Shown here piece after piece: positions 7,521 through 42,269 of a stretch of DNA of 64,000 nucleotides (positions are counted from its first letter, which is position 1; every line of letters starts with the position of its first letter). A program made the position numbers and the translations under genes. The notes under the pieces were generated by a model, which did not search any database, had not been told where the DNA came from, and saw nothing but the letters and a program-made list of their open reading frames with translations. The stretch comes from Chaetoderma sp. LZ-2023a (Eukaryota > Mollusca > Caudofoveata > Chaetodermatida > Chaetodermatidae). Location of the stretch: NCBI GenBank assembly GCA_034401795.1, contig CM067374.1:138660508-138724507 (forward strand). Reading direction: 5' to 3'.

Positions 7521-7539
7521 TCTTGATTTTATTTTCAGT
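7521..7539 (+). other. Splice acceptor of the ankyrin exon
   Basis: Pyrimidine-rich TCTTGATTTTATTTTCAG ends at 7538 and would open the exon at 7539 in phase 1. The frame is also open upstream to an ATG at 7466, so a start at 7466 without this splice cannot be excluded. Confidence 0.5.
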
Positions 7540-9959
7540 GAGAGACAGAAACAAGCATACATCTGACGTTGACATACAGAGCATAATGAGTGTGACTCGT
7601 GTATATGGCAACTATTCAGACAACGCATTGCATCAGTTAGTTAAGAATGGAAGCGTGTCAAAACAGATTGATGCACTGTGTGAGGCATCTGGAAATGGAA
7701 ATCTAAGACTTATGCGAGCTTTGTGTCAAAGTGGTATTTCTCCTCATGTTTTAGATGGCTTTCCGGAAAGAAGACCACTATTTATAGCATCAAAATGTCA
7801 ACATTCCCGTAGCAAACTACCATTAATGACGTGCTTAGTTAAAGCTGGAGCTAATATTAACTTACCAGATATGAACAACAAATCAGTCCTTCATTACGCC
7901 ATGTCAGATAATCCTGATTATGATCAATGCACCATGTCAGATAATCGTGATTATGATCGTATCATGGACCTCATACGATTGGGAGCTAATGTCAATGCTA
8001 AAGATAAAGATAACCAATCAGTGCTCCATTTAATGGTGCATAGTGATTCTTCCTATGCTAACATTAGACTGTTAATAGACAAAGGTGCTGACCTCTGTGC
8101 TGTTGATAATGATGGTAAGACACCTCTCCACATTGCGGCAATGATTAGCGATGAAGATATTGTTACGCTCTTGTTAGGCAAAGGTGCTAATGTTGCGGTT
8201 AAAGATAATAATAATAGGACACCTCTCCATGTAGCCGTGAAGTCTAGGTATAAAACCATTGCCAAGCATCTGATAGACAAAGGTGCTGATGTTTGGGCTA
8301 AGGATAATGATGGTAGGACACCTCTGCATGAAGCAATACAGTCGGTATATGAGGACATTGTTAGGCTTTTGATAGACAAAGATCGTAGGGTGTGTGCTAA
8401 CGATAATCCGGTTAGAATGCCTCTCCATGACTCACTTTTAAGATACAATGCAGTCCAGACTTGTGCAGAGACTAGATATGGAGCCACTGCTAAGCATCTG
8501 ATAGACAAAGGTGCTGATATTTGTGCTAAGGATAATGATGGTAGGACTCCTCTCCATGTAGGGGTAACCTCTGGGAGTAGAGACATTGTTAAACATTTGA
8601 TAGACAAAGGTGCCGCTGTTTGTGCTAAAGATAATGATGGTAGGACACCCCTCCATGTAGCAATACAGTTCATAAATGAAGACATTGTTAGATGGTTAAT
8701 ACACAAAGGCGTTATACTAGATTGCGTTTGTAGTAAATTAGAAAATGGTCATTTTGAAATTGTCACGCTAATGATTCAAGCAGGTGCCGATGCTAGCTGT
8801 CTTCATGGGACACGTATCCGTAATAATATCAAAGATGACAAATATCACAGCTGTGATATAATAGAGCTTCTGCTAGATAACGGGGCAGATGTCAATGCTA
8901 TAAATAAATCTGGCGAGTCACCTCTCAAGTACATGCTTCTTCACTACACCTATCTGAAGGGAAATATTGTGAAACTTTTAATTCGACATGGGGCTCTTGT
9001 TGGTGATTTAGTTAATGACTATGTTAGATTGCATCTACTCTGTGCCGTGAAGTACGAAGGGCGTCTGGCGGAACAAATTATCAAGTCAGCTACACCATCA
9101 GAACTTGCATATATTGAATGCATGTTAGATGCCATGGATAATGATATAATAGTTCATGTGTGTGATTGTCTTATTAAACATTTAAAGAAACAAACAGGAT
9201 CAAAAACTAAATTTGATACTGACCTTTTAAGAATTCTGATAGGTGCTGCAGATTTTAAAATAAGAAACCACATATTTCATTGCATAATAGACCATGATGC
9301 AGCTACGGAGTCCGTAGTTCACAGCATTCTCACTGAGCACAAATCTGATATTGATGGCAAAGATAGCCATGGGAAAACATTGCTGTATAAAGCAATTAAA
9401 CTGCATTATACAAAGATAGTGCAGTTCTTAGTTAAATCTGGAACCAATGTTAATACAATGGGTGATGAAAATAGCACTGCACTCCACCAAGCATGTACAT
9501 ATAGTCGGGTCAATCTAAGTGGATTTAATCACCCTAGATGGGGCATATTAGAAATTGCCAAGTGTCTAGTGAAAGCCGGTGCCAGTGTTAATGCAAAAGA
9601 TTCAAAGAATTCTACACCTCTTCATATCACATTGCTAGCAGGTAATGAGCTAAATGGTACATATGAAGAACTGTCTCAATTTTTGATTGAACATGGGGCT
9701 GACGCTAATGCACAAGATGATTATAAACGCACACCTCTTCACATCGCAACCAAATCAGGATGTTTATCTCTGACTAAAACGCTTCTCCATGATCATGCAG
9801 CAGATGTCAATAGAAGCGACTGCTATGGCACCACCCCTCTACACGAGGCTGCTAATTACGGCACTACAGAAATGATCAATTGTCTAATTAGCCATGGAGC
9901 TGATCTGTATGCAAAGGACTGTAAGGACAAGACACCTATGCAAGATGCAATTGACAGAA
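7539..9959 (+). CDS. ASB-like gene, exon with about 17 ankyrin repeats
   Basis: Large open exon encoding tandem ankyrin repeats, a protein-binding fold. Two arrays are visible. An N-terminal array (about 7690-8990) has many copies of the pattern LIDKGAD..AKDNDGRTPLH. A C-terminal array (about 9350-9950) has GA.VNAKD and TPLH motifs. They are separated by about 120 helical residues without clear repeats. Several N-terminal units are nearly identical in DNA, implying recent internal duplication. The first internal ATG in good context is 7586, followed by MSVTRVYG; the frame is also open to 7466. The only stop (9965-9967) lies inside a GTAAGT donor (9960-9965), so translation very probably continues into the exon at 36651. 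Exon phase (one base of a split codon) agrees with that exon. With the later SOCS-box exon the product resembles ASB-family ubiquitin-ligase substrate receptors. Confidence 0.85.
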
Positions 9960-9966
9960 GTAAGTA
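9957..9966 (+). other. Splice donor overlapping the stop codon
   Basis: GAA|GTAAGT places the intron start at 9960. The in-frame TAG at 9965-9967 is inside the donor. The exon ends after the first base of a codon, which the exon at 36651 completes with two bases. Confidence 0.7.
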
Positions 9967-9967
9967 G

Positions 9968-11220
9968 CAGCAAAATCATAGCCAAAATATCTACTTTCAT
10001 ATAATTGTTTTACATATTACTAAATTGTGATTATTCCTATCGCATGACCTATGATATTATAGAATGTATTACATTACTTGCAGAGATGCAGGTACCCAAC
10101 ATCCTATAAGACAGATTGTGCTATGGTCGGGAAATGAACAAGTTGCTAGATTAGCTTCTAAAATACAGTTTGTATTCAAACTGATTGCCGATGTATAATT
10201 GGTAATTTTGGAAGCAGAGAATTTTGTCCTCAGAGAGTTTAGGTGGCCCGAGTTGGGCGCTTCTCAACACACATAAAACAATTAACAGATTCTGTATATG
10301 AAGGATATGTCTAACCTGCCTTATTATTTGGGGGCAGCAGTCGGATCGAACCACAGGTGGTCTTCAATGGTAGGTTCACTGGCGCCCCATGAGATGTATT
10401 GGTGAGGGCCACAGACTACAGGTGGCTCCAACATCGGGTGGTCTTCACTGGTAGGTCCGCCAGCGCCACGAAAAGGTAGAGAGAATTCATCGACAGGGTA
10501 ATGTGAGGAGTTAATAGAATTACCCAGAGAATATGTAACCAGGTGGTTAATCCTCTGGCAAGAGGTAGTTGAGAATATGTGTTTTAATTTGTTTCTTTAT
10601 TTTTGGCTTGTTGTGCTGAGTTTTGATAGTTTTGGGTTTAGGCTTAGAAATTTACAATGTATTTTTGAAGTTTTAGTATATACATCGTTTATGTATTAGG
10701 TTTTATATATTGTTTAGGCCTAACTGGTTTAATTAACAGTTTTATCACTTAATATATATATATCTGGATTTAAAATGCGCTCACAGAAGAGTCACTCTCG
10801 AGGTTATGGTATTGTGGTCAGATAACAGGAGGGACTAGCCAACCCAGGACCAGTAAATACTAACTCTCAGCCCATACTACGGTTACAGATGGATGGCAAT
10901 ACGAATGCACAGCCGAAGGAGAACGTCAAAGGCACGATTTGCTTCCCCTTCGCATGCGCTGGGCCACTGGGAGGGTGGTTTCTCATAGGGAAGAACATGA
11001 CTAGGTAAATACCTTTCAGGATGTATATACTATTTTTGAATAAACCCTTCCTCGAATTATTGCCTATGATCACAATGTCACAAATGATGTTTGGTACTGT
11101 TGGAAAGCCCTGGATTCGCAAGAATATATTATGAACAAGCAATCGAAGAATCGACATCAAACGTAACCTACCTTTTCTAAAACGCACAGGATTTGGCCAC
11201 ACTATTAACTGGCTGACTTT
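9968..11220. other. Intronic sequence, no gene recognised
   Basis: Holds an 81-bp-spaced direct repeat (10356-10467) and AT-rich filler (10550-10780). A 111-codon minus-strand frame at 10867-11202 has no motif I recognise. Confidence 0.5.
10356..10467. repeat. Two-unit direct repeat, spacing 81 bp
   Basis: GGTGGTCTTCAATGGTAGGT at 10356 recurs as GGTGGTCTTCACTGGTAGGT at 10437, each followed by a GGCGCC- or AGCGCC-like block. A third partial unit, ACAGGTGGCTCC, lies between them. Confidence 0.6.
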
Positions 11221-12190
11221 ATCACCTAAATGCTGAGCACTAGAGCTCGCATTCTCAAGCCAACGACCTCTGATTGGCTAAGGGCAACTCTAAGAGGCTG
11301 ACCATTCGTCAATAGATAATGAGATGCAGAACCGATTAGTATAAAAGTAGTGGACTCTGCGTTGAACGAGACTGATTTCCACCAGACTCAGTGCTGCTTG
11401 TTCGGCAATGACTCCTCTGGTCGATGGGCTGCCTTGTTCCAGCTCCACTGGCTACGACTTGTGTGGCCACACTATGGAACGGTTAATGTGACAACTCGCA
11501 GTGATCAACAACTGCAAAGCTGCCAGCACTGAATCTCCTTTTTGAAAGGACCAACAGCCAAACTAACATACACAATTATTCCACTTTCCCTGAGGACTCT
11601 CCGCCCCTTCCCATACCACTCATAACACCTTGTGCACTGAACTTCGCATCCTTTGCCTGATACGGAAAAAGAAGGACTGAACCTGTGCCATCCTCACATA
11701 TGGACCTGTGTGTGCTTGCCTTCTGCCTAATACTTGTGGCCACTTGGCGACACTGTTTCCGCCATTCTGATTCCCACAGAAGAAGAACAAACTGGTACCT
11801 GCCTCTGATCGCGTTCCGCCCATGTGTCATTCCGCACCTGTGCTTTAAAGAAGAACTTTGTGATGAAGTATCTCGCATAACTTTACTTTTATCGTTCACA
11901 TCACCTGTTCTCAATTCAAGTCTATTCTTTCTCGAAGACACACATGAACCTTTACTGCCTAAGGAAGTTCCGCTTCCATCACAGTGGCATGGTGATCTCC
12001 GGCCATCGGGATTGAGTCATTGCTTGATACTGCACCTTGGGAACATATCTGCCAAGACTGATTGAGAGCCAACAGCAGCCGGATTAGCAAAACCTACACC
12101 CTGCAACGACGGGAAAACACTGACGAACTGTTTTACTGCCTTTGTTAATTGTACAAACTTATTAAAGATTTTTATTATCATACAGATCTA
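11221..12190 (+). mobile_element. Gypsy copy 2: LTR-like 5' region
   Basis: Aligns with the reverse complement of 2691-3780. It contains the CCAAT/TATA promoter and, near its end, ATTAAA (12161-12166) that could be a poly(A) signal, followed by TTATTATCATACA. A promoter-to-poly(A) layout fits an LTR, but without a second LTR the exact ends cannot be set. Confidence 0.5.
11271..11347 (+). promoter_or_regulatory. CCAAT/TATA promoter of Gypsy copy 2
   Basis: ATTGG (11273-11277, inverted CCAAT) lies 67 bp before TATAAAA (11340-11346). Order, spacing and the intervening AGATAATGAGATGCAGA-type sequence are conserved with copy 1 at 3551-3628, which supports function in the parental element. Confidence 0.6.
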
Positions 12191-14080
12191 ACACCGCCTT
12201 AAGCGCTCTCCTCTCCACTCTTACACCGCCTCTCTCTCACTTAGGGGTTCTCTCCCACTTAGGAGATCGAGAGTCTTAGCTGTCATATTCAGATGGTGAT
12301 ATCACGCTTCACATCAAAGTGAAGACATATATTAGCGTTGTCAGCAGTGTCACTTTTTCAATGGTTAATGGGACGTCCGCCCTAACCACCAAATTTGTGG
12401 GTGGCATCCTTTGCACTTCGCACAGTGTGAAAACATAAAATAGCGCTACGATCGAAGATGCCAGTCTTTCATTCAAAAAGGTTTATCTCCCCTTGGAAAC
12501 GTTAGGTCCTCTACACTACGTTTGGAACTCTTCACTAAAAACTAATGTTGCTAGTACACATTATTTCTGCTGCCTCCCTTAAAGCTCTCGTCCCGAATTT
12601 GCAAGGGCCCCTGCATGTCTCAGGCACTGCGATTCACATTGTCCCGGCAGGCCTTTTTGCCTCCTTGAGTAATGAATCATCAAAGGATAAGGAAAGCTGA
12701 GCCTGCGGTTTGCCCCGTTTTCAGCTCACCTTCGTTACACTTATTATGCCATTGTCATTTCCCCGCCCCCCGCTGCGAGCGATCTTAACACTGCAACCTA
12801 ATTCACACCACTTAAGACTTCTCCACATGGAGGCATTCCTTCTTGAAGGCTTCCACTTTTCCGCTCTCCCTCCAGCTTACTCTATGGGTAGAGTGACAAT
12901 TGTCCCATCTTTTGGGAAAACCTTGCTGCATAACATACTGCACTACAGCCACTAGCACGCACTAGGCACACCCTTGAGGAAACTCACTGGGACATGATCT
13001 TTTCCATCGACTAGCAACGCCTGTTCTTTTTAGACCACTTGGCTGGCAGTCAGGATAAACGTGTTAGTTAATCAATCCTGCTGCTATCACTTTTTGTCAT
13101 GCCCACCGAATCAGATAACCTCCATATCAACCAGGATCTTTTTTTAATCAACTGCGTCTTTCTCAGTCTGTAATTGTATTAGACAACAGTGGCGCCTAGA
13201 CTCGACAGAAAATCCCTAAACTCTTTTCTTTAGGTACACGAGTCAGCGTTGTTTGGAAACTCGAAAAGACCACCCTTGGATGGTGTCAAAAGCATTTTGG
13301 CATTGCTCAAGCTGATCGTCATCTCTGAGTAGCAGATTCGCCTGACTGTGCGAGATTAGAGGTTCTTGCGTAACCTGTCCTTCTGTGGCCGCCTGAGGCC
13401 TTAAACACAAAACATCTAAGTTCGTTTAAACTACCGCTCACGTGGGATCTCTTTAACCAGTTAGAGTTAGGTACACACCGAAGGGACACCTTAGGACAAC
13501 TCCAGAAAACATCTCTGTCAACCACTATGAAAAATCATCATCGAAGCGAAGATTCCCTTTTGACCACACACCAATGTAAGAAGCACTCCTCATGTGAAAC
13601 TTAGCCAATGACTTTATAATGGCTACTTACCACCTTATAAACTGACTGAACGATTTGCGACTGATAGCTAGGTAGCGACTGCCATGAGAATGTCGGCTGT
13701 CTCTCCCCCACCCCTCTCGCGAGAAGAGCTGCTGTCTGACGCCATCTGAACAGGCCCTCCCACCTCTTGAGTGACGACTTAGAGTTAAGGCCACATTGGT
13801 CAGATGACGAGGACCTGAATTGCTCCTCTCGGTGCCATATTTACACACTTTTGGCTGGCGGAAAATACCATGCATGGAGCCACTAAACTAGACCTAGTCC
13901 AATTACTGCCCCACGTTTCCACTTTGCGCTCTAGTTCTCTAGAGCGACTGGGCCTAAGAACCTAGTCCTACCACAGGCAGGTAAGAAACGAAAGCCACCT
14001 GTGGTAAAAGATTGACACCTCCTTCTTCCTCATTTCTTCCATACTCACACCTCCACTCACATGCACCTCCTGTGCCCCAG
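12191..14080 (+). mobile_element. Gypsy copy 2: long pre-gag leader
   Basis: About 1.9 kb between the LTR-like block and gag, similar over its length to 1481-2690 of copy 1 in inverse orientation. Anchors include 12370-12480 (CCGCCCTAACCACCAAATTTG region, then TAGCGCTACGATCGAAGATGCC) and 12560-12600 (CTGCCTCCCTTAAAGC). Peptide-level similarity to copy 1 persists despite stops in all frames. A leader this long is unusual for Gypsy elements. I recognise no domain. Confidence 0.5.
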
Positions 14081-16250
14081 GATAACCTGACCATAACCCT
14101 ATGAGAAGGACTGGCCGACCTGGGAGAATACTTCAACCGTGTGTATGAGCATGCCCATCACCATGCTCCGAATTAAAGAAACACCATCAGCCAAGATGGC
14201 CACTCCTGACTCCAACTGCTCTCACGCGGACACCAGCATTGAAGAAGATGCATCCATCATGGGAGGTTGCCTAGCTACCAGAGTTCAACATCTGCAAGCA
14301 CTATGCTGTATCAGGAATGTTCGACTGGACCTACACATCTCCAAGGAGATGGCTGGCCACTCCAGCCAGAAAACGCTTGTGGGGGAGCTCTGTGAAAGTG
14401 CCCATGAGACAGCATGGCAAGCCCTGAGAAATTTAATCGAGAGCCCCAGGAAGGACACGTTGGCATGGAAGCCACAGAATGAATTACCACACCACGCCAG
14501 ATTGACACCCCAAGCCAGAGCTCGAGGATTATTATGACGAGGACAGCCTTCGTGACAACCATATACATGGCCCCTCCCGATGATGCCACACCTCCCGACG
14601 ATGCCACACCCAGTCTCGGCTTGGCTTGGGTGACAGTCATGGAATTGCGGCCACCCGGCCACAACTGGCGCCCAATGTAGGGCCACAAAGGCATTTCCAG
14701 ACGACGATCCCACCAACTGGGTGCGGCCCAGATACGATGTTGCCCATTTCTATTCAGCAGAACCTAGAAGGGGATAGGACGTATCATCTGCCTTGCAAAA
14801 ATATGTCCAGGCAGTATCACCCTTGTTCACACACAGATCTTCCATTGGAAATGTTATGCCCTTACGAAGCTAACCTGGTATGGAGGGTACCATCTGAAGG
14901 CAATGAGGATTATCGATATCCACTTTGGAATATGTCGCCCCTGCTTTCACCTCTGGCAACACCTCGTCTCATGGCCTTAAGGTTATGCCACCTGGGTATG
15001 CTGGTGAGTCACCTTTGGGAAAACTACCTCTGCCAGTTCGCCTCATCACGGAACTCAGTGGCTGGGGCCAGGCCACTAGAGAACTTTACCTTGCCACATA
15101 CTTGAATGAGAAGACCCTGCAAGTGCTGACTGATCTGCGAACTAATCTTCCGCCCTCCTTCCTGCAGCTTCACTGTAAGAACGATTTGGTGACAGCGCCA
15201 AAACAGAGACTAGTCGATTTCTCCTATGCACTATCCACTGGGAGTCGAAGGAGACCCTGCCTGGGATGGCAGGCCATGTCCACCGACTTGTGATGCGAGC
15301 TTATAGCCCACACAAAACTCCATCCTAATAGACAGCTTTATTGAGGCACTAAGCAGCCAACCAGATCTAAAGGACCACTTGTAACAGGCTTATCTGTGAG
15401 ATAGTACAGAACTGACAAATGCGGCGATATGCATTAGCAATTTTCTGAACCACGAGGCCACCCACGCTCTGACCCATTGAGAACATTCATGACAGACAGA
15501 AAACTGCCGTCATAGTAAATAGGTTCTCCGGACCATGTGGACCCAGTAAAAGTACAACTAGCTATGCCCGCTGCCATGCTCCCACAGCTTTTGCTGATTC
15601 TGCCGCCTAAGCCACCGCACATCTTTCTGCCACCAGCTCCAACCCTGGCCCCCTCAGATGGAAGGCATTTTAAAGGATGGTCAGAACGCATCCACTGACC
15701 CCTGACTCTGGTCGACTACTGTTGGATGAGAATATCCGCATCACATCTATGCAGAACACAATGATGACTTGCTGCCTGGACTCAGTAAATCAGCAAGCCC
15801 TCAACATTCCTTAGTCTGCCATACCCGGTACCCACCAACCACAGCTGAGTCTCCAATATGCCCTTCTGTCCTCCCAAGGCACATGCACCACATCAAACCA
15901 AGTCAGATGCTTGTTTCCACTGTGGTCAAGCCAGACATTGGACTCACAGTTGCACCCACTCCGGATATCAACAGGAAGCCCCTCGTGTTGCTCGACCTGT
16001 AGACAGCACTGAATCTGCAGAATATATGGACCCCAAGCCTGGCCCAGAATGCCCGACAGATGATTTAACTCATTCCGATCTCTAGCCCAGAGCTTCGTAG
16101 AGGCCCCGCCCTCCCAATAAGCTCAGTGACCAATAACACCTGGAAATTAGTGCAGCAATGCCCAGACCACCACTGTCGCAATTGCTGCCAGACAGGACAT
16201 GAATGCTGACACTGTACGGACACTCGTAATGTACAACCACTGATTCCCCA
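14080..16250 (+). pseudogene. Gypsy copy 2: decayed gag with two zinc knuckles
   Basis: Gag packages element RNA into cytoplasmic particles. A capsid-like block (about 14960-15240) has PLGKLPLP, SGWGQATRELYL and VLTDLRTN, matching copy 1. A CX2CX4HX4C zinc knuckle, CFHCGQARHWTHSC, sits at 15912-15953. A second knuckle with the same spacing but an internal TGA lies at 16174-16215. The region passes through several frames with stops, so it is dead. The 14666-14683 segment that resembles a lysine-tRNA primer site falls inside conserved gag coding and is not treated as a primer-binding site. Confidence 0.7.
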
Positions 16251-17585
16251 ATCCTAGAGCAAGCTCAAGAAGTTTCACCCAATGAGTTAGTACCCATATG
16301 AAATTACCTTCTACTAAGTCTGCTGCCCCTCCTCGGCAGAAACCGACTAAACAGCCCAGCTATTTCGACCAGACTTCTGCCACTGAAAAGCTTAGGCAAG
16401 TGCATGTACATCCTAGAAGCACAAGCTGCGCCATCTGAATCCCCACCCAGTTTGGAAACTGTCTGTCTCGCACGCTCTAGCTCTCTTAGATGCCATTGTA
16501 CCATTCAACATACTCCCGCCCTCACCACTGACGATACTTGAACTACCATCATTTGCTCCCAGCTTTATGCTACTATGCCTAAGGGCATGCGACGCCCATT
16601 ACTAGAAGGTGAGCTGAAAACGGGGCAAACCGCACACTCAGCTCTGCGGTGCTGCAGGCACTCCTCTGGCAGTTGCTGGAATTCATCCAGTGGATCATCG
16701 CCACCAACATTGCAAATGAGGCACTGATCGCATGTGCACGAGAAATATTTGAATTTTTTAGATTGTTGCAATCCCGGATGACTACCGCCCCAGGACGAGT
16801 TTTTCCCTCCAAGAAGAAACTGGTTCTTCCCCTTCTCTACCTCCTCACATACAGGGCATGTATTCCCACGCCACAGAAGGGTTGAGCAGGGAATACAGTT
16901 ATCAAGTATATGCGTTTCTGAGTGAACATACAGACACCGTCCCCAGCAGTGATTTAGACCTAGGAGAAACCCACTTAGTGTGGCATACCATCGAAACAGG
17001 AGATTACTGCCCTGTTAAAGACCATGTCCGTAATCTTTCTATACATAAAGAACAGGAAGCACACCAACAAGTGACAGAGATGTTGCAATCCAGCATCATA
17101 GAACCGTCCACATCACCATGGCCATCCCCATTGTTTTAGCCAGTAAGAAAGATGGAACTTTCCGCTTTTGTATCGACTATAGATGCCTGAACGACCGCAG
17201 TCTCAATGAAGCCTACCATCTTCCACAAATAGGCCATGCCCTTGATTCCCTCACTGGCGCCACTTAAGTCTACACACTTGGTTTGGGCAGCATATACTGG
17301 CAAGTAGAGATAGATGACCGCAACAAGGAAAATACCCCCTTTGTTTGTCATGATTTTTAAATTTAGAACAATGCCTTAAGTCTTTGCAATGCCCATGGAA
17401 CCTTCGAACATTTGATGGAATGAGTATGCTAGACGATGTAATAGTGTTTGGAGCTACTTTTACTGCTGCAATGAATAATCTCCGCGAAATTCTCAACAGT
17501 TTTGCCACTGCCAATTTGAAACTAAAAACAAGAAAGTGTCATCTGATCTGCGAAGAAGTGGAATTCCTTGGTCATGATGGTTTCC
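16251..17585 (+). pseudogene. Gypsy copy 2: truncated protease-RT remnant
   Basis: The 16858-17139 frame has DLDLGETHLVWHTIETGD, followed by EAHQQV and SIIEPSTSPWPSP, the typical start of a Gypsy reverse transcriptase. Copy 3 has the same order at 58010-58170. The next codons, in another frame, give FCIDYR and a later L.DVIVFG block near 17430-17460 in place of YIDD. Similarity stops at VEFLGH (about 17576), where a C-rich tract begins. RNase H and integrase are missing. The protease stretch (16550-16860) is hardly recognisable. Confidence 0.7.
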
Positions 17586-18532
17586 CTCCTCATCCCCCCA
17601 TACCCACCCACCCCACTCTCCCTCCCTACATCCAAACCACATGGTGTAGCACATATCACTCAGTCATGTACACACCAGCCCAGTTTGTCCGGGTACTGGA
17701 TACTCCAGCCCCACCATAAAAATGCCTAACGTGCATGCGCATCAATAGGAGATAGCGCAGCTGTGAGGGTATGGGGCTATGAGTGGCCAGGTGCATACAA
17801 AATGAGCACAAGAGAATACAGCGAGTGAGTTGGTGCTTTGAAAATCACAGTCGTCTCCTAAGACAGCTCTTTTCTGTAAAAGAAACGAGCATTTTGTATA
17901 TATTGTTTTGCAATACATGGCCCCCACCTTGTGATATAAATCTTCAGTCTAAAACTCCATTAAAAATTGACAGAAGCTGAAACTCAAGCTTGATTTGTAA
18001 CCTCTTATAACATATTGGAGCATCTCGAAAAAACGTCCGGAAAACTGATATTTTTCGTGTTTCATAAGTCAGAAAAGGGGGGGGGGGGTGGGGGTGTGTG
18101 TGTAATTCTGTGAAACGCGAACCTGATCTGTAACTATTAATACTAAAGCAATGTACCAAGTTTCAGTTGAATATGTTGAAGCATCTCAATGTGACAAACA
18201 GGGAGGGCGATGGTTTGCAATCAATGATTGCTCTTGTTCTGGGACTATGTAAGTGTCATTTATGTGGAAGTGTCCTTTATATAGAGGTGTCATTAAGAGA
18301 ACGTTTGACTGTAACTATGTAATTATTTCAAAGGTACTATTATTGAATCTGGTGTGTATACTTAAAATAAGTAAGCCCACAAGTCATATCGATTCTAACT
18401 GTTGCTATAGTTAGCAGTAAGTGTGCACATAGTCTCCTCAACAAACTATTAAGATGTAAGACACTGGCTATTATTGTTCACCAAAGCACCAGTAACTTGA
18501 ATAGCTAGAGGGTGGAATTCAATAAGGCGATT

Positions 18533-18572
18533 TAGCTAGACGTGGTTTATGGAGATAAACCTGGTCTAGCTA
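18533..18572. repeat. Near-perfect 40-bp hairpin
   Basis: TAGCTAGACGTGGTTTAT and ATAAACCTGGTCTAGCTA are complementary except at two central positions per arm and are separated by GGAG. Possibly the core of a small MITE. Confidence 0.6.
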
Positions 18573-19189
18573 TTACTAGGTTTAAACATGCATTAACACC
18601 CAGGTCAAATATCGCTTTTAAGATTTTAAAAAATTGTTTAACGTACACGTAAGTAATATAATTATAAATGCCTACAAACCTAAATCTATTTGATGTGACC
18701 TATAGCTATCCTTTAAAAGGTTTACACATTTTTAACCGAGTACCAAAATAGGTAATAAATCTGCTAACAAGCTAAACCGATTGGCGTAAGGTGATTTAAA
18801 AGGTTAAACGGGTAATACACATTGCGAAAATTTAAACTACGTAGGGGCTAGGGTCTAGTTTATGACTCGGGTTTAAATCACATCGCTGAGACAAATGATG
18901 GAAGCATTGAGAGATGTTCGTAATTTACATGTTGCTAGATGGGCGATTCGGCGAGAGTAAATTTTGTGAGTTACACTCTCCCCATAGATGGATCTAGGTG
19001 CAAGTAAGGGTGGGTGGTATTGGAAAAACTGATAGCGGCTATGATATGAATTTCCATGCCGGTATAACCGTCATACCAGTATTAGGTCAGTGGTGGGTGG
19101 AGTATATCTGCGTGGACATTTTTACAGCTAATGTATCTTTCAGAAATACCTCTTTAGCAACAAAGTTAAATGAATGTTGTTACTGTTCG

Positions 19190-19443
19190 GATAACGTCAT
19201 GATGAATGAAATATCAATTGAAAAATGTTAACATTTACATAATTCTTGGTGAATAATAGAGACAGACAATAGACTACGTTCAGACCTTGAAAAAATGTTG
19301 AAAGTTTTTGAAAATCATATATTTCTCATGGTGGAGGATGGATGTAATGATGGTATAGAAGCATCCTGTGAAGTTTCATTGTGATTAGATAACCCTTTGA
19401 TGAATTAAATATCACTTGAAAAACTTAACATTTTGGGGGTTGG
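19190..19443. repeat. Diverged direct repeat, about 198-bp spacing
   Basis: GATAACGTCATGATGAATGA (19190) is echoed by GATAACCCTTTGATGAATTA (19388). Both are followed by AAATATCA.TTGAAAAA and TTAACATTT. Confidence 0.5.
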
Positions 19444-19613
19444 TCACGGAGGGAAACGGAACGGAGGAACGGACTAACAAATGCTCGTGTACACCCGCTC
19501 GCTTATCGCGGTCGCGGCTAATAATAATTGCAAAAGATGAAAACGTTTTTTAAAATGAATTCTTTATTTATATTTATTTGATCACTAGCACTCGGAGACA
19601 GCACTAAACAGGT

Positions 19614-19812
19614 TTAACCCTTTGACCCACATATTTCTCCGAGAAGATTTCAGTTTCTCATGAAATGTCCCTTTATGCACCAGGAGAAACATATTCCTGA
19701 AAAATTATCACGGGGGTGACTCACTCAGTTATCGAGACAGTCATTCCCATGGTAAAGTCTACAAGTAGGCAATTAATAAGACCACTCCGCATTGGTCAAC
19801 AGGGCGTGTTAA
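19614..19812. mobile_element. TTAA-ended MITE, diverged copy
   Basis: Starts TTAACCCTTTGAC and ends GTTAA near 19812. The middle carries diverged arms around ATCACGGGGGTGACTCACTC and GAGACAGTCATTCCCATGGT, the same plan as 19888-20075 and 42270-42437. TTAA ends next to CCCTTT suggest a piggyBac-derived element (inference). Confidence 0.45.
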
Positions 19813-19887
19813 GCGGCTATGAATCATTTTATTTCAACAATAATATCAGCGTAAATTTTAACCCTTAAACAAATGCAACTCATTTAA

Positions 19888-20075: not shown

Positions 20076-20114
20076 ACAGTTTACAAGCAAATATCTCCAA
20101 TTCTCTTTACAATT

Positions 20115-20745: not shown

Positions 20746-20815
20746 GGGGTTCTCCTCTCTGATGCTCATGTTTATGTATGAAATTGGTATGCACCCATAA
20801 AATTTGGCATTTTTC

Positions 20816-30166: not shown

Positions 30167-30341
30167 GGGTACGCAAGCTCCCTTCATATCCGCCTGGACC
30201 GCGCCTGTGCGACAGGAACAGCGGTTCCAGTTATACCCGTCGTGCCTAGAACGAAATGGTTCTCACTCTCTCTCGTTAAGAAAGAGGGGGGGGGGGGGGC
30301 GGACTGCGAGCCGGACAACCCCGTTAGACGTCGAGGCGTCT

Positions 30342-32272
30342 ATGGTGGGTGGAAGGCTCATGCGTTTCGTCGAGGCCTGGCGAGGTGTGACGTCAGACAG
30401 TCTGGTCCTGGGATGGTTATCCCAGGGTTACATGCTGGAGTGGTGGGACTTTCCGCCACAAAATCTGTCTTTGGCACCTGTCTGGACACCCGTACCAAGG
30501 GAGCCAGACAAGTTAGAAGCCGTTCAAAAGGAAGTGTCAGGTTTGCTTCTGAAGGGAGCAATAAAACCAGCAAACCGGAACACTCCAGGCTTCTATTCAA
30601 ACATGTTCCTTGTCCCCAAGAGCACAGGGGATGGCGACCCATACTCAATCTTAGGCCATTAAATTGGTTTATCCATACGCCTCGGTTCCAGATGGAAACG
30701 CCGAGGTCGGTAATGGCGGGATTGAGGAAAGGAATGTGGTGTGTATCGATCGATCTGAAAGATGCATATTTCCACATTCCGATGAATCGGAGTTGGCACA
30801 GGTTTCTGAGATTTGCGTTTCAGAATCAAGTATGGGAGTTTACAGTTCTCCCGTTTGGCCTGTCGACAGCTCCGAGGGTTTTCACAAGAGTGGTCCTTGC
30901 GGTGACAGCGTTTCTCAGAAAAGAGAACGTGGCGCTACACACCTACATAGATGACTGGCTGCTCAAGGCAGACTCGGCAGCCAGGTTGAACGTGGATACT
31001 GCTCTGACTCTGAAGTTACTTTCAGATCTAGGCTGGATAGTCAACGAGGAGAAATCCGAGTTAACGCCCACTCAACATTTCGTTTATTTGGGGATGCGAT
31101 TCGACCTCGAGGAGGGCAGGGTTTACCCGTCAGAGCCCAGAGTGGTGTCTCTGTTAGCCATCCTCAGGAGTTTTCGAGTGGGAAACCACATTCAGGCGAG
31201 GCGGTTCCTTCAGATGCTGGGCATGATGGTCTCCATGGAGCAGGTTATCCCGTACGCTGCTCTAATGCGAAGACCTATCCAGTTGTATCTGATGTCTCTG
31301 TGGAAACAGAGAACAGAACCCCTGTCAAAACTGGTGCCAGTTTTGGAGCCGATAATATCGCATCTTCTATGGTGGAAACAGCGTCAGAATCTCCTAATAG
31401 GAGTTTCGCTGCACCTACCCCACCCCCAGCTGTCCGTTTACACGGATGCATCGCTGGAGGGGTGGGGTGCCTGCCTGGGAGAACACCAGGTCTCGGGCAC
31501 ATGGACTCTCCCGGAGAGTCAGCTGCATATCAATCTGTTGGAAATGATGGCAGTGGAACTGGCATTGGAAACGTTTCTTCCAAAAGTCAGGGGCAAGGCG
31601 ATATTGATATGGTCGGACAACTCGACAGTATTATCATACATAAATCGCCAAGGCGGGACCAAGTCAACCACACTATGTATGAAAGTGTGGCACTTGATTC
31701 AATGGTGCAGGAATTACTCGGTTGTTTTGAAAGCAGCTCACATTCCTGGGCGATTGAACATTCTGGCGGATGCTTTGTCTCAGTGACAGATAATTCTGCC
31801 AACAGAATGGTCTCTCAACACTCCAGTTCTTCACAGGATCTTCGAGCATTGGGGCAAACCCAACGTGGACTTGTTCGCCACGAAGGAAAATGCTCAAATC
31901 ATGACTTATGTCTCGCCGATTCCAGATCCAAATGCCATCGATACAGACACTCTGGCGATAAGCTGGGGACGGATGCATGCTTACGCGTACCCACCCACCA
32001 TTCTTCTGCCGAAGATATTGGTGAAGATCAGGGAGGAACTATGTCTGGTCCTGCTAATAGCGGCATTTTGGTCCAGCAGGGTGTGGTTCACGGATCTTCT
32101 AGATCTGCTGGTGGACAATCCAGTGCAGTTACCCGAGACTCTGAACATAATCTCCCAGGCCAAGGGATGCTTCCTACATGAGCGTCCCGAAATGTTTAAA
32201 TTGACTGCATGGATGTTATCAAACAACGTTCCATGTCGGAAGACTTTTCTCGACAAGCTGCGAATTTCATAG
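30342..32272 (+). pseudogene. DIRS B RT / RNase H / methylase-like polyprotein
   Basis: Copies element RNA into DNA and removes the RNA strand. The RT N-terminus (FVEAWRGVTSDSL, WWDFPPQNL) lies in one frame from 30342. A run of four Gs at about 30626 shifts into the frame carrying motif A (VSIDLKDAYFHIPM), motif B (LPFGLSTAPRVF) and motif C (YIDD at 30944-30955). RNase H follows with its acidic residues in VYTDASLEGWG, LLEMMAVELA, WSDNST and HIPGRLNILADALS. An in-frame TGA (31784-31786) precedes VDLFATKENAQ, DPNAIDTDTLAISW and AYAYPPTILL, which I read as the Dam-like methylase domain of DIRS elements, with YPPT in place of the usual NPPY-type motif. The start codon is uncertain because the frame overlaps gag. 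Confidence 0.82.
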
Positions 32273-33209
32273 CAGCTGCGAGAAGGAGGTCAACCTTCAA
32301 GTCATATAACAACAAGGTTAACAGATTTGCAGACTGGTGTGAAGGAAAGGGTATTGATACCTTTCAATCCACTATTCAGCAAATAACAGACTTTCTCTGT
32401 GAGCAGTTCTTTTCAGGACTAGCTCCTGTCACAATTGCTGGATACAAGTCAGCTTTGGCATCACTTATCCCTTGTCTAGCCAACAGGGATAGTCCAGAGG
32501 TGGTCCTTTTGAATGTGATGGTGAAGGGAATGAACAATCTCCGACCAAGACAACAGGTAGTCATTCCAGCCTGGAGTCTATCTTTAGTGCTTTCAAACCA
32601 TTGCGTTCGGCTAGTCTAAAGCATTTGACTCTAAAGGCGGCTTTTCTATTGGCAGCTTCCTCAGATAGAAGGCGCAGTAAGATCCATGTACTTTCAGCAG
32701 AGAGGGACCGAGTTATTGTCTCCAGAGAGAGAGTCTGTGTCTACTGCCAAAGAGCAGAGTTTATGTCAAAGAATCAATCTTTGAGATATCCCAGCAAACC
32801 GATCATTATACCGAAACTAACTAGGTTTGATCGTGATGCTAGTGTCTGGTGCCCAGTCCGTGCTTTGACTAAGTACAGAAAACGGACAGACTCGTTACGG
32901 TCGAATGATAGACATCTGTGGATCTGCCATAAGAAGCCATATGGTGCCGCATCCATGGATTCTATCTCTCATTGGGTAGTCGAATGCATTCAGACTACCC
33001 ATGAGATTGTGACTGGGCACCAGGTGCAATGGACAAGGGCACACAATGTTAGAGGAATAGCCGCCTCGACCGCCCTTTACAATGGTGTTCCATTAGAGGA
33101 CATCATGGCTGTTGCACAATGGCACTGTGAGTCCTCTCTCATGGATTACTATATGAGGGATGTGTCAGACTCTGCCAATCCACTCGCTTTTGAAACGATA
33201 GTTATATGA
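32209..33209 (+). pseudogene. DIRS B tyrosine recombinase, one frameshift
   Basis: Integrates the circular DNA intermediate. The N-terminal core-binding part (32209-32590) has STFKSYNNKVNRFADWC and LAPVTIAGYKSAL. The catalytic part (32601-33209) has the first arginine region LLAASSDRRRSKIH, the H-x-x-R box HNVR (33042-33053), the downstream W of AQWHCESS, and the nucleophilic tyrosine in MDYYMRD (33147-33152). A small deletion near 32590-32605, in CTTTAGTGCTTTC, breaks the frame between the two parts; otherwise all catalytic residues are present. It overlaps the end of the RT ORF by 64 bases, as in related elements. The protein ends at TGA 33207-33209. Confidence 0.85.
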
Positions 33210-33702
33210 CCACATTGCTCTTCTCCCTTTCTTGGCATTTGTAAGAAAGAATTAAGAAGCAGACATGGTCGAGCGAGAGGATGTCAACCAGATTGTGTCA
33301 CTGATGGCCGGACGAGTGAATGGTTGGAGACTCCACGTCTGAAATCCAAATATCATGAGGTAATTCAAGATTGAGAGTTTTTTGTATTATGTCTATGTAT
33401 CATGTTCATTCATCTTATATATTCATGCTCATTCCCAGGCTAATATATGCAAAGAGCAGTTAACCCTCTTGGCATATTTGTGTTTCAGGCGAGATGAATG
33501 TTCGTGAGTTCTCTTCCTTTTCTTAGGAGAAAGGGGTGGGGGGGGTGGGGGGCAGTGATGCGAATGTGGTTCGGTTCCGTTAACTTGATGGTCCTTTTAG
33601 TTCTCCATTAATCAGGTTTAAGTCTAGCTCTTTCTCCAAGGGGCAAAAGTAGCAATTGATGGCTTGCCCCTTCCCACCAGATTACTGTCTAAATCTGGTA
33701 TA
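33210..33702 (+). other. DIRS B 3' untranslated region
   Basis: Non-coding between the recombinase stop and the internal complementary region. It contains a G-rich GGTGGGGGGGGTGGGGGG tract at about 33534-33552. Confidence 0.6.
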
Positions 33703-33801
33703 TATCAGAAGTAATGGAATAGTGAGTATTGATCGAAGGAGAATGAAGGAAATTTCAATTTCCCTTTCTCCGAGATCTAACAATACTCACCATTCTATTA
33801 C
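33703..33801 (+). repeat. DIRS B internal complementary region
   Basis: The left part (33703-33746) is the reverse complement of the left end of the element (26991-27034). The right part (33747-33801) is the reverse complement of the right end (33996-34047). The two parts meet at GGAGAATGAAGGAAAT. This juxtaposition is the hallmark thought to template ligation of DIRS ends into a circle. The two halves are also complementary to each other, forming a long hairpin. Confidence 0.8.
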
Positions 33802-33869
33802 GGACCCAGCCTCCCAGCACCACGGAGGCAAGCCATGGGTATCTCTTGTTTGGTGGCTATGAAAACAAT

Positions 33870-34047
33870 ATCAGCTTCATGGCAAACGGGTACTCGGTAG
33901 TTGTGAGCCGAGTACCCGGTTCCAGGAGTCGGTAAAGCTTACTAAGTCTATAGTCATAGGGCCAGCTATCCACGATAGCTTGTATCAGAAGTAATAGAAT
34001 GGTGAGTAGTGTTGGATCTCGGAGAAAGGGAAATTGAAATTTCCTTC
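33870..34047 (+). repeat. DIRS B right inverted terminal repeat
   Basis: Reverse complement of the left repeat: TATGACTATAGACTTAG, AGCTTTACCGACTCC and the palindrome are all present in inverse order. The outer end is GGAAATTTCCTTC at 34047 by comparison with the internal region. The palindrome lies at 33887-33918, with spacer AGTTGTGA and one arm mismatch. Confidence 0.8.
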
Positions 34048-35144
34048 AACCTGTTGTAAATTCACTGTATAAATTGTACTACGCCGAGTGCCGTACTTAG
34101 ACTATGCTTTCGGTTATGTTTAGTTAGAAGTTAGTCTCATAAAAACCATACACTTGTTTATATTATACTACAGACTTTCAAGTAGCGCATCTCACCTAAA
34201 CTGTGTACTTGAACGGCTCCATATATTCACTAGGACCGTTTCTCGTGCCTGCATCAATAGACACGATAAACGGCATAAAATCCCTAACCTAAAGTATTAG
34301 CTCAGATATTTCAGCTAGGCCATTGAGCATCAGAGGAAGTTGCTATAAAGGCGTGCTGTTTATTGCAAAGCGCATTTTTACGGCGCCACTCCAATAACTG
34401 TGGACCACTGTCAAAAAGCCTTAGCACGCCGGTTAATTACTGTTATTCACAACTATCTCGGTCTGCGCCAATACTCCGGCCATTCTGGCCATTTAATTGT
34501 CTGGTAACTCCCTCCATCGGCTGGGTTAGAGCCGACCCTTTCTTGGTGGCTAGAATCTAAACGGCAATGCCTCACTCACCCGCTCTGTACCTTCACTTGT
34601 ACCTCTAGCCAAAGAAGGAATTCACAACGAAAATATAATTTGCCGAGATAACCATTATAGACGCTACAACGTCACTATAAAACTTAATAAGGCACGCCAC
34701 CATTGATGATGGGCCTGGAAACTGAGAGGATGCCCATACTTACTGACGTTTCTGAGTGATGAAAGTTCTACGGATTTCAAGCATCATTTACTGTGTTGAA
34801 TCCTATGGTGCATGATGCACGTACAGTTCTCATCCAAACGGCCATGCCAGTATATAGGGACGGTACAGAACCTATGTACAACATGAGAGGATGACTGCCT
34901 ACATTACGTATTGCGCTAATGTGCGACAACCACAATTCCAGCCTAAATGTTATAAAATTAAATAAGTGTAAATCTCGATTACGAATATCCCCTACGCTTT
35001 TATACTTGACACGAAGTAATCCATTTCTAAAGTTGATAAGAAAACGGGCAAGATTGGATGTTAAACTGTCTATTTATATTGTAACGGATTTGGAGTCCAA
35101 ATGTGTTGCAGGTGGCATAAGCTAACAGGTGTGTATAGAAATAG

Positions 35145-35183
35145 TATTGCTACGTATGATCGCGCGATCATATGATAGCAATA
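35145..35183. repeat. 39-bp palindrome with perfect 18-bp centre
   Basis: The centre TATGATCGCGCGATCATA (35155-35172) is perfectly self-complementary. It is flanked by TATTGCTA and TAGCAATA. Confidence 0.6.
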
Positions 35184-35936
35184 GTCGTAACAAGTATCTA
35201 ATAGAAGTTAAATAACTCTAAATTAAGTTTTCTTAGTAAATTATAGGTATTTTAGGCCAAACAGTTTGACATTGACCTTTACCTCGTCATCTTGACATAT
35301 AGATAATGAAGAAAACCTCTCCGATCTATGGAACGTACTAAAGATTATCATAATACATACCAGATTCACCAGAATCGGCCTATTATTAGCTAATATATGG
35401 CCATATTAGGTTTTCACCCATATCAGCAGCGGCCATTTTGAATTTACCCTAATTAGGGGATGTTGAGAAATTCCAAAAATTTGCCCATATCAGGATGTGA
35501 TTATTACCTATCAAAGATCATCCGTGCAAAATTTGGTGATTTCTTCCAAAAGTGAACATTGCAGCTGTTAGGACAGCGGATCATTTGTCTCTCGTTGATA
35601 CTTGTGTTCGATTGTAATCCCAACAGTGACCACTATATATGATGTGCAAGTTGCGACACATTTTCACCAATATGGAAATGAACGCACAGAACCTACTAGT
35701 CAAATAAACGTCAAGCGCTTCGACTGTTTTATCATACATTGACTATGCATATGTCATTAAATGTTGGCCCACACACGGGTTGTTCCTTTATTTGGGTGCT
35801 CAATTGATGAATCCAGTTTCTCAGTCAATCATATGACCTCATAATCAACTACGTCACATGTTGGCTGACGTCATAATCAATCACGTTACAAATAACGCGA
35901 CTTATCCATCAAAACACATACTAGTCTGTAAAGTTG

Positions 35937-36396
35937 TACGAATTGTATGTCTTTATTATTTATTAAATATTCTGTTTAATATTTTGAAACTATTTTGACT
36001 TGGCGCTGTTGCTCAAAATATTCAACAGCTTACCTGTATAGGTTTCTGGGACTTAAGATTCACAGATGTTTAAATTGAATGAGCCCAACACAGGCAACGC
36101 GTGGGTGGAGCTTAGCTAGAGATAGGCGGGGCAAGGCTAAAACTGTATACCTCCATTGCTCCGTCAAGTTGTGAATCTTTTGACAGTACGCTGGAATAGA
36201 GGGATCCATTTCTAGCTAAGCTCCTCCCACGTTGTGCCCTTGTTTCAAACTAATTTAACAAGTTGAATTATGAGGTATCAGAATCCTAAATTTCACTGTA
36301 ACTATACATTTAATCTGATGAATATTTTACAAATTAGTTTTTAAAAATTCAACAGAATGTTTATTAAATTGTAAATTCACAATAGACACACAATTC
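35937..36396. mobile_element. Palindromic MITE, about 460 bp
   Basis: The outer arms begin GAATTGTATGTCT on the left and, on the complement of the right end, GAATTGTGTGTCT. Both contain ATTCTGTTTAATATTTT-like sequence. An inner inverted pair, GGGTGGAGCTTAGCTAGAGA (36108) and TCTAGCTAAGCTCCTCCCAC (36211), surrounds the centre. A related fragment is at 49245-49345 and a related motif at 4519-4638. It has no coding capacity. Confidence 0.55.
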
Positions 36397-36650
36397 AGCC
36401 TGTCGTGATAGACTTTTCTACATTTGCGACAGACTTACATAATTTTAATTGTGATGCCAGCTAAATAAGTGATCATTTGATCATGACGTGAGGAACTTGA
36501 GTGACAGACAGATCAGATCCTTCCATTATGGGGTTATCTGTCTTTTGTGATCACAATATTATGCTCTCTAAGATGGATATTATTTTGACACCAAACTGGC
36601 CCAGTCTCAGACCGTAAGCTCACGGGTATGTGTTTGTTTAGTTCCAGTAG

Positions 36651-36846
36651 AATGTATGGAAATGTACGTGTTTGGAGAAACAGAGAGAGATATATTGTTG
36701 CCTTTCGTGGAACAACGCGGCTTCCCGGCTGATCTGATGACATCCTATATATATGGAGCTTGTGTGATGGAATATAATGAATATGATGATCATCGGGCTT
36801 TTGCTATGCTTCATCACCTTGTCCAGTTTGGCTGTGGAATAGACAG
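36651..36846 (+). CDS. ASB-like gene, middle exon
   Basis: Sixty-five codons linking the ankyrin exon to the SOCS-box exon. The acceptor is GTTTGTTTAGTTCCAGTAG ending at 36650 (or CAG at 36647, three bases earlier, same phase). The donor is ACAG|GTATCA at 36846. The exon starts with two bases completing the split codon of the ankyrin exon and ends with two bases completed by the G at 39185, so all three exons share one frame. It encodes FVEQRGFPADLM, then RAFAMLHHLVQFGCGID, which resembles a degenerate ankyrin helix pair. Additional small exons between this and the ankyrin exon cannot be excluded. Confidence 0.65.
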
Positions 36847-38076
36847 GTATCATTTTTTGTATATGAAAATGTGTGTCTATAATAGTTATTTGTTCAACAG
36901 GCTTTTGTCTTCTGTCTTTATTCTGTCCAATTGAAAACCATTGTACACAAATTTGGAAACTCGTGCCAGCAAGTCATGTTCATTCGATATTTCATTTGAA
37001 AACCTGATCGTAGGAAGCATGGTCATCAGAAACAAATCAAAGCATTATATTTGTTACCATGCGGAAAGTTTTATAGGAACAATTTTGATGAAAATTGTTG
37101 TTTTATATAGATGTTTTGTATGTCGATATTGATATGTGGATGTACATTTCAATGTTCCAGACAACTAAATGAGCCCGCCTGGATTGCTGTATTTCCCATA
37201 AATACTAGAGATAATGATATAATTTAAATTTTTAATTTAATTCATTTTAATTGGCAATCTTATATTTTTCGCTGTGGGTAGCAGCTCAATAAACCATCAG
37301 TCAGTCGGTCAGGTGGTTTGGTCGGTCAGTCAGTCACAAAAGCTTATTCTGGGCTGTTGTTTCAAGAGTCTTCGGTATACAATGATTAAACTTGGAAGAC
37401 AGGTTGCGCGTGGAGTTTTGAAGATCTGTGATAAATGTAGGCTCAAAACGTCAAAGGTCAAGTCAGCCGACCAGATTAAACATCATTATTTTACAAAATA
37501 ATTTAGTGAAGCTAATTGTGCTCGAGATGTCTTGAACAAACTGTGATGGAAGTTTACCGCTGAGGTCACGATTTGTGGTCAAAATCTCAAAGGTCAAGGT
37601 GATAAGATTAATTAAAATATCATTCTTTTGAAAAGCAATTTGTCAATAACGTGTGTTCTATTAAAGCGATATTTACCGGCTTGGGTGGAAGATTGCCTGG
37701 TACGGTCCGAAGAAGTGTGAGCAATTTGGGGTCATGAGATCAAATAGCAATGTCACAGTGACATAGTTAAAAAATATTCCAAACGTGAATGACGTGAGTA
37801 TTGTTTACATACGTAGATTGGTAGCTGGACGCATTAGACAGGTGTTCGACTGGTCATGCATATAGTATCTCATTAAATAGCGAATGACATAATTATTGCA
37901 GTGTTCTCTAACTATAGTTGTATTTACTATTATGGCAAATGAGCTTTTGGCTCTGGGGTGGGTTGGGGACTAGGGATGAAGCTACAGGTCGGGAGATAAT
38001 GATCAACAGACCGATGAATATAATTGAAGTCTATTACTGATGATTGACAGATTAACTGACAATCTTATCAATGACA

Positions 38077-38170
38077 GGTCCGTTCACTGGCTGGCTGACT
38101 GACTGGCTGGCTGGCTGGCTAACTAGCTGGCGGGCTGCCTGACTGACTGAGTCACTGACTGGCGGACGGA
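38077..38170. repeat. CTGG/CTGA tetranucleotide repeat
   Basis: Tandem CTGGCTGGCTGACTGACTGG-type units; simple sequence. Confidence 0.85.
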
Positions 38171-38223
38171 CTGGGAAGTTGTTGGTAAGCTTCAAGTCAG
38201 GAAAGTGATGACCCAGGCGAGAG

Positions 38224-38230
38224 TATAAAA
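38224..38230 (+). promoter_or_regulatory. TATA box-like sequence in intron
   Basis: GAGTATAAAAGGAGCCGACT followed about 30 bp on by CTCAGATCATTCAGACTTT. Good TATA context but no CCAAT box and no cDNA evidence. It could start a short transcript containing the SOCS-box exon. Confidence 0.25.
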
Positions 38231-38334
38231 GGAGCCGACTTTCAGAGCTCAGATCATTCAGACTTTTGGTCTCGCAACGATAACAAGCGTCAGGCACTCA
38301 TAGAGTTAGTCAAAGTTTTAGACTAAGTCGTTAG

Positions 38335-38519
38335 TACACCTGCCTGCTTGTCTGCCTGCCTGCCTGGACTCCTGGCTGGCTGACTGACTGACTGACTGCC
38401 TGCCTGGACTCCTGGCTGGCTGGCTGACTGCCTGCCTGCCTGAACTCCTGGCTGGCTGACTGACTGACTGACTGCCTGCCTGCCTGGACTCCCGGCTGGC
38501 TGACTGACTGACTGACTGA

Positions 38520-38562
<43 letters not shown>

Positions 38563-38710
38563 GACTCCTGGCTGGCTAACTGACTGACTGACTGACTGCC
38601 TGCCTGCCTGGACTCCTGGCTGGCTGACTGCCTGGACTCCTGGCTGGCTGGCTGGCTGGTTGGTTGGCTAGCTAGCTGGCTGGCTGGTTGGCTGGCTGTC
38701 TGTCTGGCTG
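38335..38710. repeat. CTGC/CTGA/CTGG tetranucleotide repeat
   Basis: Long composite tract in which blocks of (TGCC)n, (TGAC)n and (TGGC)n alternate. A higher-order unit of roughly 40-55 bp is punctuated by GGACTCCTGGCTGGCT, seen about seven times. The serine/glutamine-rich minus-strand frame here is a by-product. Confidence 0.9.
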
Positions 38711-39184
38711 ATCCTTTACTTTTAACTCTTAACAACACAACAAAATAAGCTTTACTGTAAACCATAAAAAATTAACAGGGCTATACAGACACTACCCTTG
38801 TGGGAATCCCCCACCAAAGATATTTGCCTATCCTATACAATACTAACCTTTTATATATTTTCTGACAATGGCTAAGTATGTAGATTAAAATATAGTTATC
38901 TTGGCAGCATGTGACATTAACATCGCATTACACTACACTATAAAATATGTCAGTGAACAGATAAACAATTACTGGCGAACCAAATGACAAACAGACGGTA
39001 ACATTTAAAATCAATAAAGTGGATTACTGAACAACTCTAAGTTAAAGGGCTGCCATCTATGCCAACATATCCATGAACATCTTAGATTGTAATCTATTAA
39101 ATTATTTCAGCATACGTCATTTAGATATAATGTATTTTTAAATATCTGATTCGTGAAAACTTGATTGATTTGTTTTCTTCACAG

Positions 39185-39851
39185 GAAAGATGAGTTGGAC
39201 AGATTTCTACCAATATTGTTTCGTATGAACAACCTTTATGTGCTGCTTTATCTGATGTCAGCAGGACTGTTTCCGACAATGTCTGTATATAGAATGGAAG
39301 CAGAACGCTTACAGGATTTTCAAATAAGAATGCAAACCAGATGTGAGAAGCAGGAGAAACCTAATAACGGCAAATCATTTCTAGACGTTCTCATGGATAA
39401 ATTCACCAAACCTCAGTCCTTGAAACTTCTGTGTCGTGATAACATCAGGCAGACATTATACCGAGCAGCGAATGGAACAGAAATTGTCTCAGTAATTGGT
39501 GATATGTCAGAGATACCAACAGTGATGAAGTCCTTCCTGTGCCTAGAAGGGCTTAACTCGATGCTAAGTCAATCTGCTGTTGATGATTATGATCAATATT
39601 TTACCTGTGGCTATCGCGATTACCATGCAGACAATGATGACCATAATGACTCTTTTGAGTATACTTATGCTTATACCCATGTAGACTCTGATGATTCTAG
39701 CTATGCTGTTTCTGACTACGGCTATGATGACTATAGTGAGTATACTGATGATGGCATCTTCAGTCTTTTCGATAGAAATTATTATAATTTTGATGGAGAT
39801 AATACTAATTATTATGATAGACATGATTCTGATTCTTCTGCTGGTTTTTAG
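39185..39851 (+). CDS. ASB-like gene, terminal exon with SOCS box and acidic Asp/Tyr tail
   Basis: The strong acceptor TTGTTTTCTTCACAG ends at 39184; the first base completes the codon from the exon at 36846. The exon opens KDELDRFLPILF and YVLLYLMSAG, a further ankyrin-like helix pair. At 39417-39550 comes a SOCS box: SLKLLCRDNIRQTL fits the elongin-binding BC box, and IPTVMKSFL occupies the place of the LPxP..LxxYL half that contacts Cullin-5 in ASB proteins. SOCS boxes recruit Elongin B/C and a Cullin-RING ubiquitin ligase, so the ankyrin part would bind the substrate. The last ~90 residues are highly acidic and tyrosine-rich (about 22 Asp and 16 Tyr), which I have not seen in ASB proteins. 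The stop TAG (39849-39851) lies at the edge of an inserted repeat. Confidence 0.78.
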
Positions 39852-42268: not shown

Positions 42269-42269
42269 A

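Follow-up and report, generated by a model that had tools for sequence, protein, structure and literature searches.

We analysed a 64,000-nucleotide stretch of the genome of the mollusc Chaetoderma sp. LZ-2023a (C16:138660508-138724507, hereafter the window) and describe in it a predicted gene of the ankyrin-repeat type that very probably has three exons and spans a 26.7-kb transposon-rich intron. The window probably carries a single host gene with at least three coding exons and about 1,079 residues, whose product would consist of an ankyrin stack, a short variable segment, and a SOCS-box-like end followed by an acidic, tyrosine-rich tail. Paralogous loci repeat the exon set with order and phase unchanged, and as judged from the DNA these loci are far stronger support for the gene model than the agreement of splice phases. 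To judge from its architecture, the product most likely serves an Elongin BC-cullin ubiquitin ligase as an ASB-like substrate receptor, and the fast-changing family to which it belongs may tag other proteins for destruction.

Exon structure and paralogous loci

The coding part of exon 1 (7586..9959, forward strand; 791 codons plus one base) contains the start codon and the ankyrin stack, and matches the Pfam families Ank_2 (E 1.4e-88) and Ank (E 1.2e-81, in 12 stretches). The ATG at 7586, which the preliminary description had taken as the start, is kept in 6/6 relatives compared, as is TTGATTTTATTTTCAG in front of it. An acceptor AG on the same strand (7537..7538) precedes this ATG, so that 7539-7585 forms the leader part of the exon. 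Because the spacing between acceptor and ATG is 47 bases in the window and in its C9 copy and 60 bases in the other five relatives, the leader is probably non-coding. The last base of exon 1 opens a new codon (A/GTAAGTAG; in splice sites, the solidus marks the exon border) and stands in front of a phase-1 donor GTAAGT (9960..9965, forward strand) that is shared with the C9, C7 and C16:135.08 Mb copies. Read-through gives AGT AAG TAG with an intronic stop, which falls within the donor as had been claimed, and in these three copies read-through likewise stops immediately (xGT AAG TAR), so the stop is simply what this donor produces in this phase.

Exon 2 (36648..36846, forward strand; 199 nt) runs from phase 1 to phase 2, is open in only one of the three frames, the one that the phase demands, and ends two bases into a codon at CAG/GTATCA. 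Its start had been placed at 36651, giving about 1,078 residues. That frame is indeed open, but the relatives favour 36648, from which the joined open frame has 1,079 codons rather than 1,078. The two candidate acceptors form a CAGTAG tandem in the window, the 36651 site being its second half, and the three relatives compared here lack the tandem (TTTGCAG/TGAAATG in C9; TTTTACAG/TCAAG in C7 and C16:135.08 Mb). Since the splice-site CAG of the C9, C7 and C16:135.08 Mb relatives sits at the place homologous to TTCCAG/TAG at 36647/36648 in the window, exon 2 more likely starts at 36648 than at 36651. Intron 2 (36847..39184, forward strand) contains CTGG/CTGC tandem repeats at 38339-38710. Exon 3 (39185..39851, forward strand) begins directly after TTTTCTTCACAG, carries the SOCS-box-like segment and the acidic, tyrosine-rich tail, and ends with the stop codon TAG at 39849-39851. 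On direct reading, the exon, donor and acceptor letters and the phases given in the preliminary description all match the sequence.

The same description had argued from three independent phase matches. The phases do fit, but there are only two junctions, and 285 of the 1606 AG sites of the intron region open a phase-1 frame that is 196 nt or longer, in 42 distinct frames. Phase matching alone is therefore weak evidence, and we rejected it as proof of the gene.

Paralogues were searched in the whole 2.44-Gb genome. Exon 1 has at least 113 matches, scoring having been confined to the best candidates, and other ankyrin genes probably account for some of them. There are 35 matches to exon 3, and seven to exon 2 at six places (E up to 10 allowed; weakest 0.002). 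To pair exon 1 with exon 3, 51 exon-1 rows (of 113) and 33 exon-3 rows (of 35) were entered by hand; a C3 row that overlapped another and the C9 exon's second piece were dropped. The nearest ankyrin row within 100 kb was upstream on the same strand at 20 of the 33 exon-3 places, downstream on the same strand at none, and on the opposite strand at two, while an upstream same-strand row would be expected by chance at roughly 0.0008 per exon-3 place (with the number of ankyrin places taken as about 39). Since a single cluster, at C3:44.775-44.782 Mb, accounts for five of the 20, the pairs correspond to 16 loci.

All six exon-2 places lie downstream of a same-strand ankyrin exon. At five of them (the window, C9, C7:82.29 Mb, C16:135.08 Mb and C3:44.76 Mb) exon 2 stands between exons 1 and 3, and the sixth, C7:81.41 Mb, has an exon-1 match before it and no exon-3 match nearby. 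Exons 1 and 3 lie between about 2 and about 88 kb apart, depending on the locus. The homologous exon-3 acceptor was recognised by eye, in the correct phase, in 14 of the 15 sequences scanned, L037 being the exception; in L036 it follows an ATT run, and several of the 15 show further AGs too. Donor, acceptors and phases are conserved in C9, C7 and C16:135.08 Mb. The paralogues agree in exon set, order, strand and phase although their introns differ widely in length, and they support the proposal of one gene across the 26.7-kb intron. DNA alone could hardly give the gene structure firmer support; its splicing is inferred.

Some members of the family have features of their own. The C3 cluster (C3:44774908-44782048) holds at least five exon-3-like places in about 7 kb on one strand, some of them with stops; a single ankyrin exon lies about 78-85 kb upstream of this group of SOCS-type last exons. 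The frames of the exon-1 relatives L005, L006 and L007 end after 259, 411 and 492 codons, respectively, and these could be pseudogenes or shorter forms. Two ankyrin places, C11:192771311-192774292 and C11:193013620-193016601, have near-identical match lists in opposite orientation about 240 kb apart, possibly through an inverted duplication or as an assembly duplicate.

The C-terminal segment and its predicted role

A SOCS box had been assigned to the last exon. Thirteen members including the window were aligned from 15 exon-3 sequences, leaving out L036, whose frame stops inside the box, and L037, whose first part is unrecognisable and whose box is open. Pfam SOCS_box was matched by 13/13 members (E up to 1), and each of seven other Pfam families listed was matched by a single member. 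The assignment is thus supported by the match of the whole family, while the window protein taken singly stays below the Pfam cut-off. A BC-box-like motif, SLKLLCRDNI (39417..39446, forward strand), conforms to the pattern (S/T)LxxxCxxx-hydrophobic and occurs in 12/13 members, window included; in two rows the first match of the scan lay elsewhere, and both also have the motif at the aligned place. An incomplete Cul5-box-like motif, IPTVMKSF (39513..39536, forward strand), lacks the preceding LP of the consensus hydrophobic-XX-LP-hydrophobic-P-XX-hydrophobic-XX-(Y/F), as given in the consulted part of PMC2988792.

Several results weigh against a SOCS box. Exon 3 of the window scores 17.3 bits against SOCS_box, where the gathering score is 23.5, and the strongest match among the 13 members reaches only E 0.00093. 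The full Cul5-box consensus is found in none of them. The exon-3 profile gave 14 matches in PDB without an ASB or SOCS chain among them, and its best match, an LRRC8 repeat protein (E 0.053), was judged to be chance. AlphaFold prediction of exon 3 alone from the single sequence was uninformative (pLDDT 34.7). The other searches were negative as well: residues 780-1000 of the joined protein yielded 424 candidates in the protein database, none at E 0.001; the exon-3 alignment yielded 1202 candidates there, none matching; and a PDB search with the C-terminal part gave three matches, the best at only E 0.31.

The architecture suggests how such a protein would work. The ankyrin stack together with exon 2 would hold a target protein, the BC box would bind Elongin C, and a cullin-RING module would then ubiquitinate the held target. 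Lacking the LP of the Cul5 consensus, the protein gives no firm pointer to a particular cullin. Alternatively, the segment might bind Elongin BC without Cul5, for example together with Cul2, or act as a non-ligase adaptor. The presence of the BC box in nearly all members and of the full Cul5 consensus in none would fit this; we nevertheless consider it somewhat doubtful, as the part of the Cul5 box after the LP is kept in 11/13 members, which is expected for a cullin contact.

Selection and alternative explanations

C9 holds a copy of the entire locus with exons, phases and donor kept, and its frame is open across exon 1 (696 codons to the donor stop) and exon 2 (259 bases versus 199 in the window). 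The two copies were compared over 872 codons, with exon 3 included up to codon 160, after which comes a tail in which the C9 frame terminates early. Synonymous divergence (dS) was 0.078 and non-synonymous divergence (dN) 0.069, and the resulting dN/dS of 0.88 (bootstrap 0.60-1.31) is indistinguishable from 1. The 177 changes include no stop, whereas 4.8 to 7.5 stops would be expected if the copies were unconstrained (Poisson P 0.0006 to 0.009), and the length changes in exon 1 are whole codons in the codon alignment of the two open frames. In exon 1, dN/dS was 0.56-0.57 in more distant pairs and 0.48 to 0.92 in close pairs, with 0.88 in the C7-C16 pair. In exon 3 it was 0.43, and 0.34 in the first 140 codons.

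Exon 2 differs from its C9 counterpart at 30 of 199 aligned bases, a higher rate than in the flanking intron, where 44 of 1039 differ (P 1.5e-7), and by the Nei-Gojobori method 28.8 changes are non-synonymous versus 1.2 synonymous (Fisher test on rounded counts, P 0.012). This acceleration rests on the one pair of copies, window and C9; the C7-C16 pair showed none (10/208 in the exon versus 67/1102 in the flanks, P 0.63). The divergence may also stem from gene conversion or from the way the sequences align near the 60-base difference in length. Amino-acid changes in exon 1 gave no clear sign of avoiding ankyrin framework positions (5/60 versus 14/105, P 0.45; five repeats, self-chosen positions). 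Diversifying selection on exon 2 would be an attractive reading, not a result. Because exon 2 of this copy outpaces the flanking introns, almost only at amino-acid positions, while the BC box is fixed, the family could conceivably be a lineage-specific set of receptors for ubiquitin ligases on which diversifying selection acts, comparable to families in host-pathogen conflict, with targets swapped and the destruction module kept; we regard this as speculative and unlikely.

Other readings of the locus have to be weighed, together with the points that count against a single functional gene. Splicing and expression are deduced from DNA. At 11 of the 33 exon-3 places no entered ankyrin row was found within 100 kb, and the close exon-1 copies at C13:61.44, C13:61.48, C16:139.49, C1:98.67 and C6:80.98 Mb have no exon-2 or exon-3 match nearby; some of these copies contain stops and may be dead or truncated. 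Such solitary ankyrin exons would suit a complete ankyrin gene ending at 9965-9967, with exons 2 and 3 belonging to another gene or being chance frames, as would the stop that the frame meets six bases beyond the exon border and the frequency of phase-compatible frames in the intron. This reading is highly improbable, since several paralogous loci share exon order, strand and phase and the donor is conserved although the intron is rearranged. An ankyrin gene ending at 9965 was rejected on the exon-3 pairing and the exon-2 places.

Further points count against a functional gene. No AATAAA was found between the stop codon and 44859 (39852-44859), the C9 frame ends earlier in the exon-3 tail than that of the window, and dN/dS between the two does not depart from 1. 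A decaying duplicate of a real ancestor, from which selection has been lost, would account for this ratio, for the equal value in exon 1 of the C7-C16 pair, for the stops present in other copies and for the lack of AATAAA near the stop codon. It is nonetheless rather unlikely, because stops are absent from the changes relative to C9, the splice signals of the window are intact, and more distant pairs give lower ratios. We prefer the single host gene of at least three coding exons.

The transposon-rich intron and comparison with known systems

Intron 1 (9960..36647, forward strand) was aligned block-wise to the C9 intron, and blocks of more than 500 bases are 85-95% identical. A reverse-transcriptase relic region (12418..17776, forward strand) is present in C9 too, which indicates that it is older than the locus duplication. 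It had been named Gypsy; its only reverse-transcriptase match is to RVT_1, at 23.3 bits below the cut-off of 29.6. The hAT relic was confirmed as a transposase fragment on the reverse strand (20116..20316; Dimer_Tnp_hAT, 46.9 bits), in a region that does not align to C9, where other DNA of similar length stands. The two DIRS elements proposed earlier correspond to an 11.7-kb block of two DIRS-like elements (22391..34053, forward strand) with two reverse transcriptases (RVT_1, 65.8 and 75.7 bits) and inverted repeats at its ends, whereas RT_RNaseH (24.3 bits) and the integrase-like N-terminal domain Phage_int_SAM_1 (19.3 bits) stay under the cut-off. Because C9 has about 16 bases at this site instead, the block was most simply inserted after the locus duplication. 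The C9 locus in turn has 5.4 kb of its own without counterpart in the window.

Repeats also lie beyond the gene. A 157-bp tandem array of 4.8 copies (40023-40770) starts about 170 bases past the stop codon, and a 40-bp array of 22 copies with 90% matches occupies 41124-42009, with similar DNA at the C9 locus. A stretch of 1.67 kb (55242-56908) is 97.7% identical, in inverted orientation, to DNA just 3' of the C9 gene copy; being more alike than the locus duplication itself, it looks like a recently moving element.

Most of what the locus shows is ordinary for a large gene family with recent rearrangements; of more interest is how quickly exon 2 may have changed while the BC box stayed constant. 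A gene can be argued for across a 26.7-kb transposon-filled intron from a single genome, with duplicated loci as natural controls that also order the insertions, the reverse-transcriptase relic having arrived before the duplication and the DIRS-like block, on the simplest reading, later. An ankyrin family of rapid change in which the BC box is kept and the Cul5 LP is lacking would make both the expansion of E3 ubiquitin-ligase receptors for conflict and the choice of cullin testable. Titles and abstract openings in the literature yielded no expanded ankyrin-SOCS family in molluscs, bivalves or invertebrates, which says little.

Among solved structures, exon 1 matches Ankyrin-1/Ankyrin-2 best (4rlv, E 1.4e-82), which we read as general repeat similarity; the window protein differs in its SOCS-box-like end. 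It resembles the ASB family in overall plan; ASB proteins are much shorter. According to the consulted part of the review PMC4812663, a SOCS box consists of a BC box and a Cul5 box, and the ASB family (ASB1-ASB18) has 18 members, several of which work with Cul5-Rbx2. The window protein shares with them an order in which ankyrin repeats precede a SOCS-box-like segment that contains a BC box and, by analogy, the expected role as an E3 substrate receptor. It differs in the missing Cul5-box LP (13/13 members), in the long acidic, tyrosine-rich tail behind the box, and in the many dispersed copies within one genome. Since it lacks a full Cul5 box and scores below the Pfam SOCS_box threshold, we do not count it among the ASB proteins. 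A partial Cul5 box also has a parallel in SOCS1, whose SOCS box has an incompletely conserved one according to the same part of PMC4812663; the CIS/SOCS proteins have an SH2 domain, where the window protein has ankyrin repeats.

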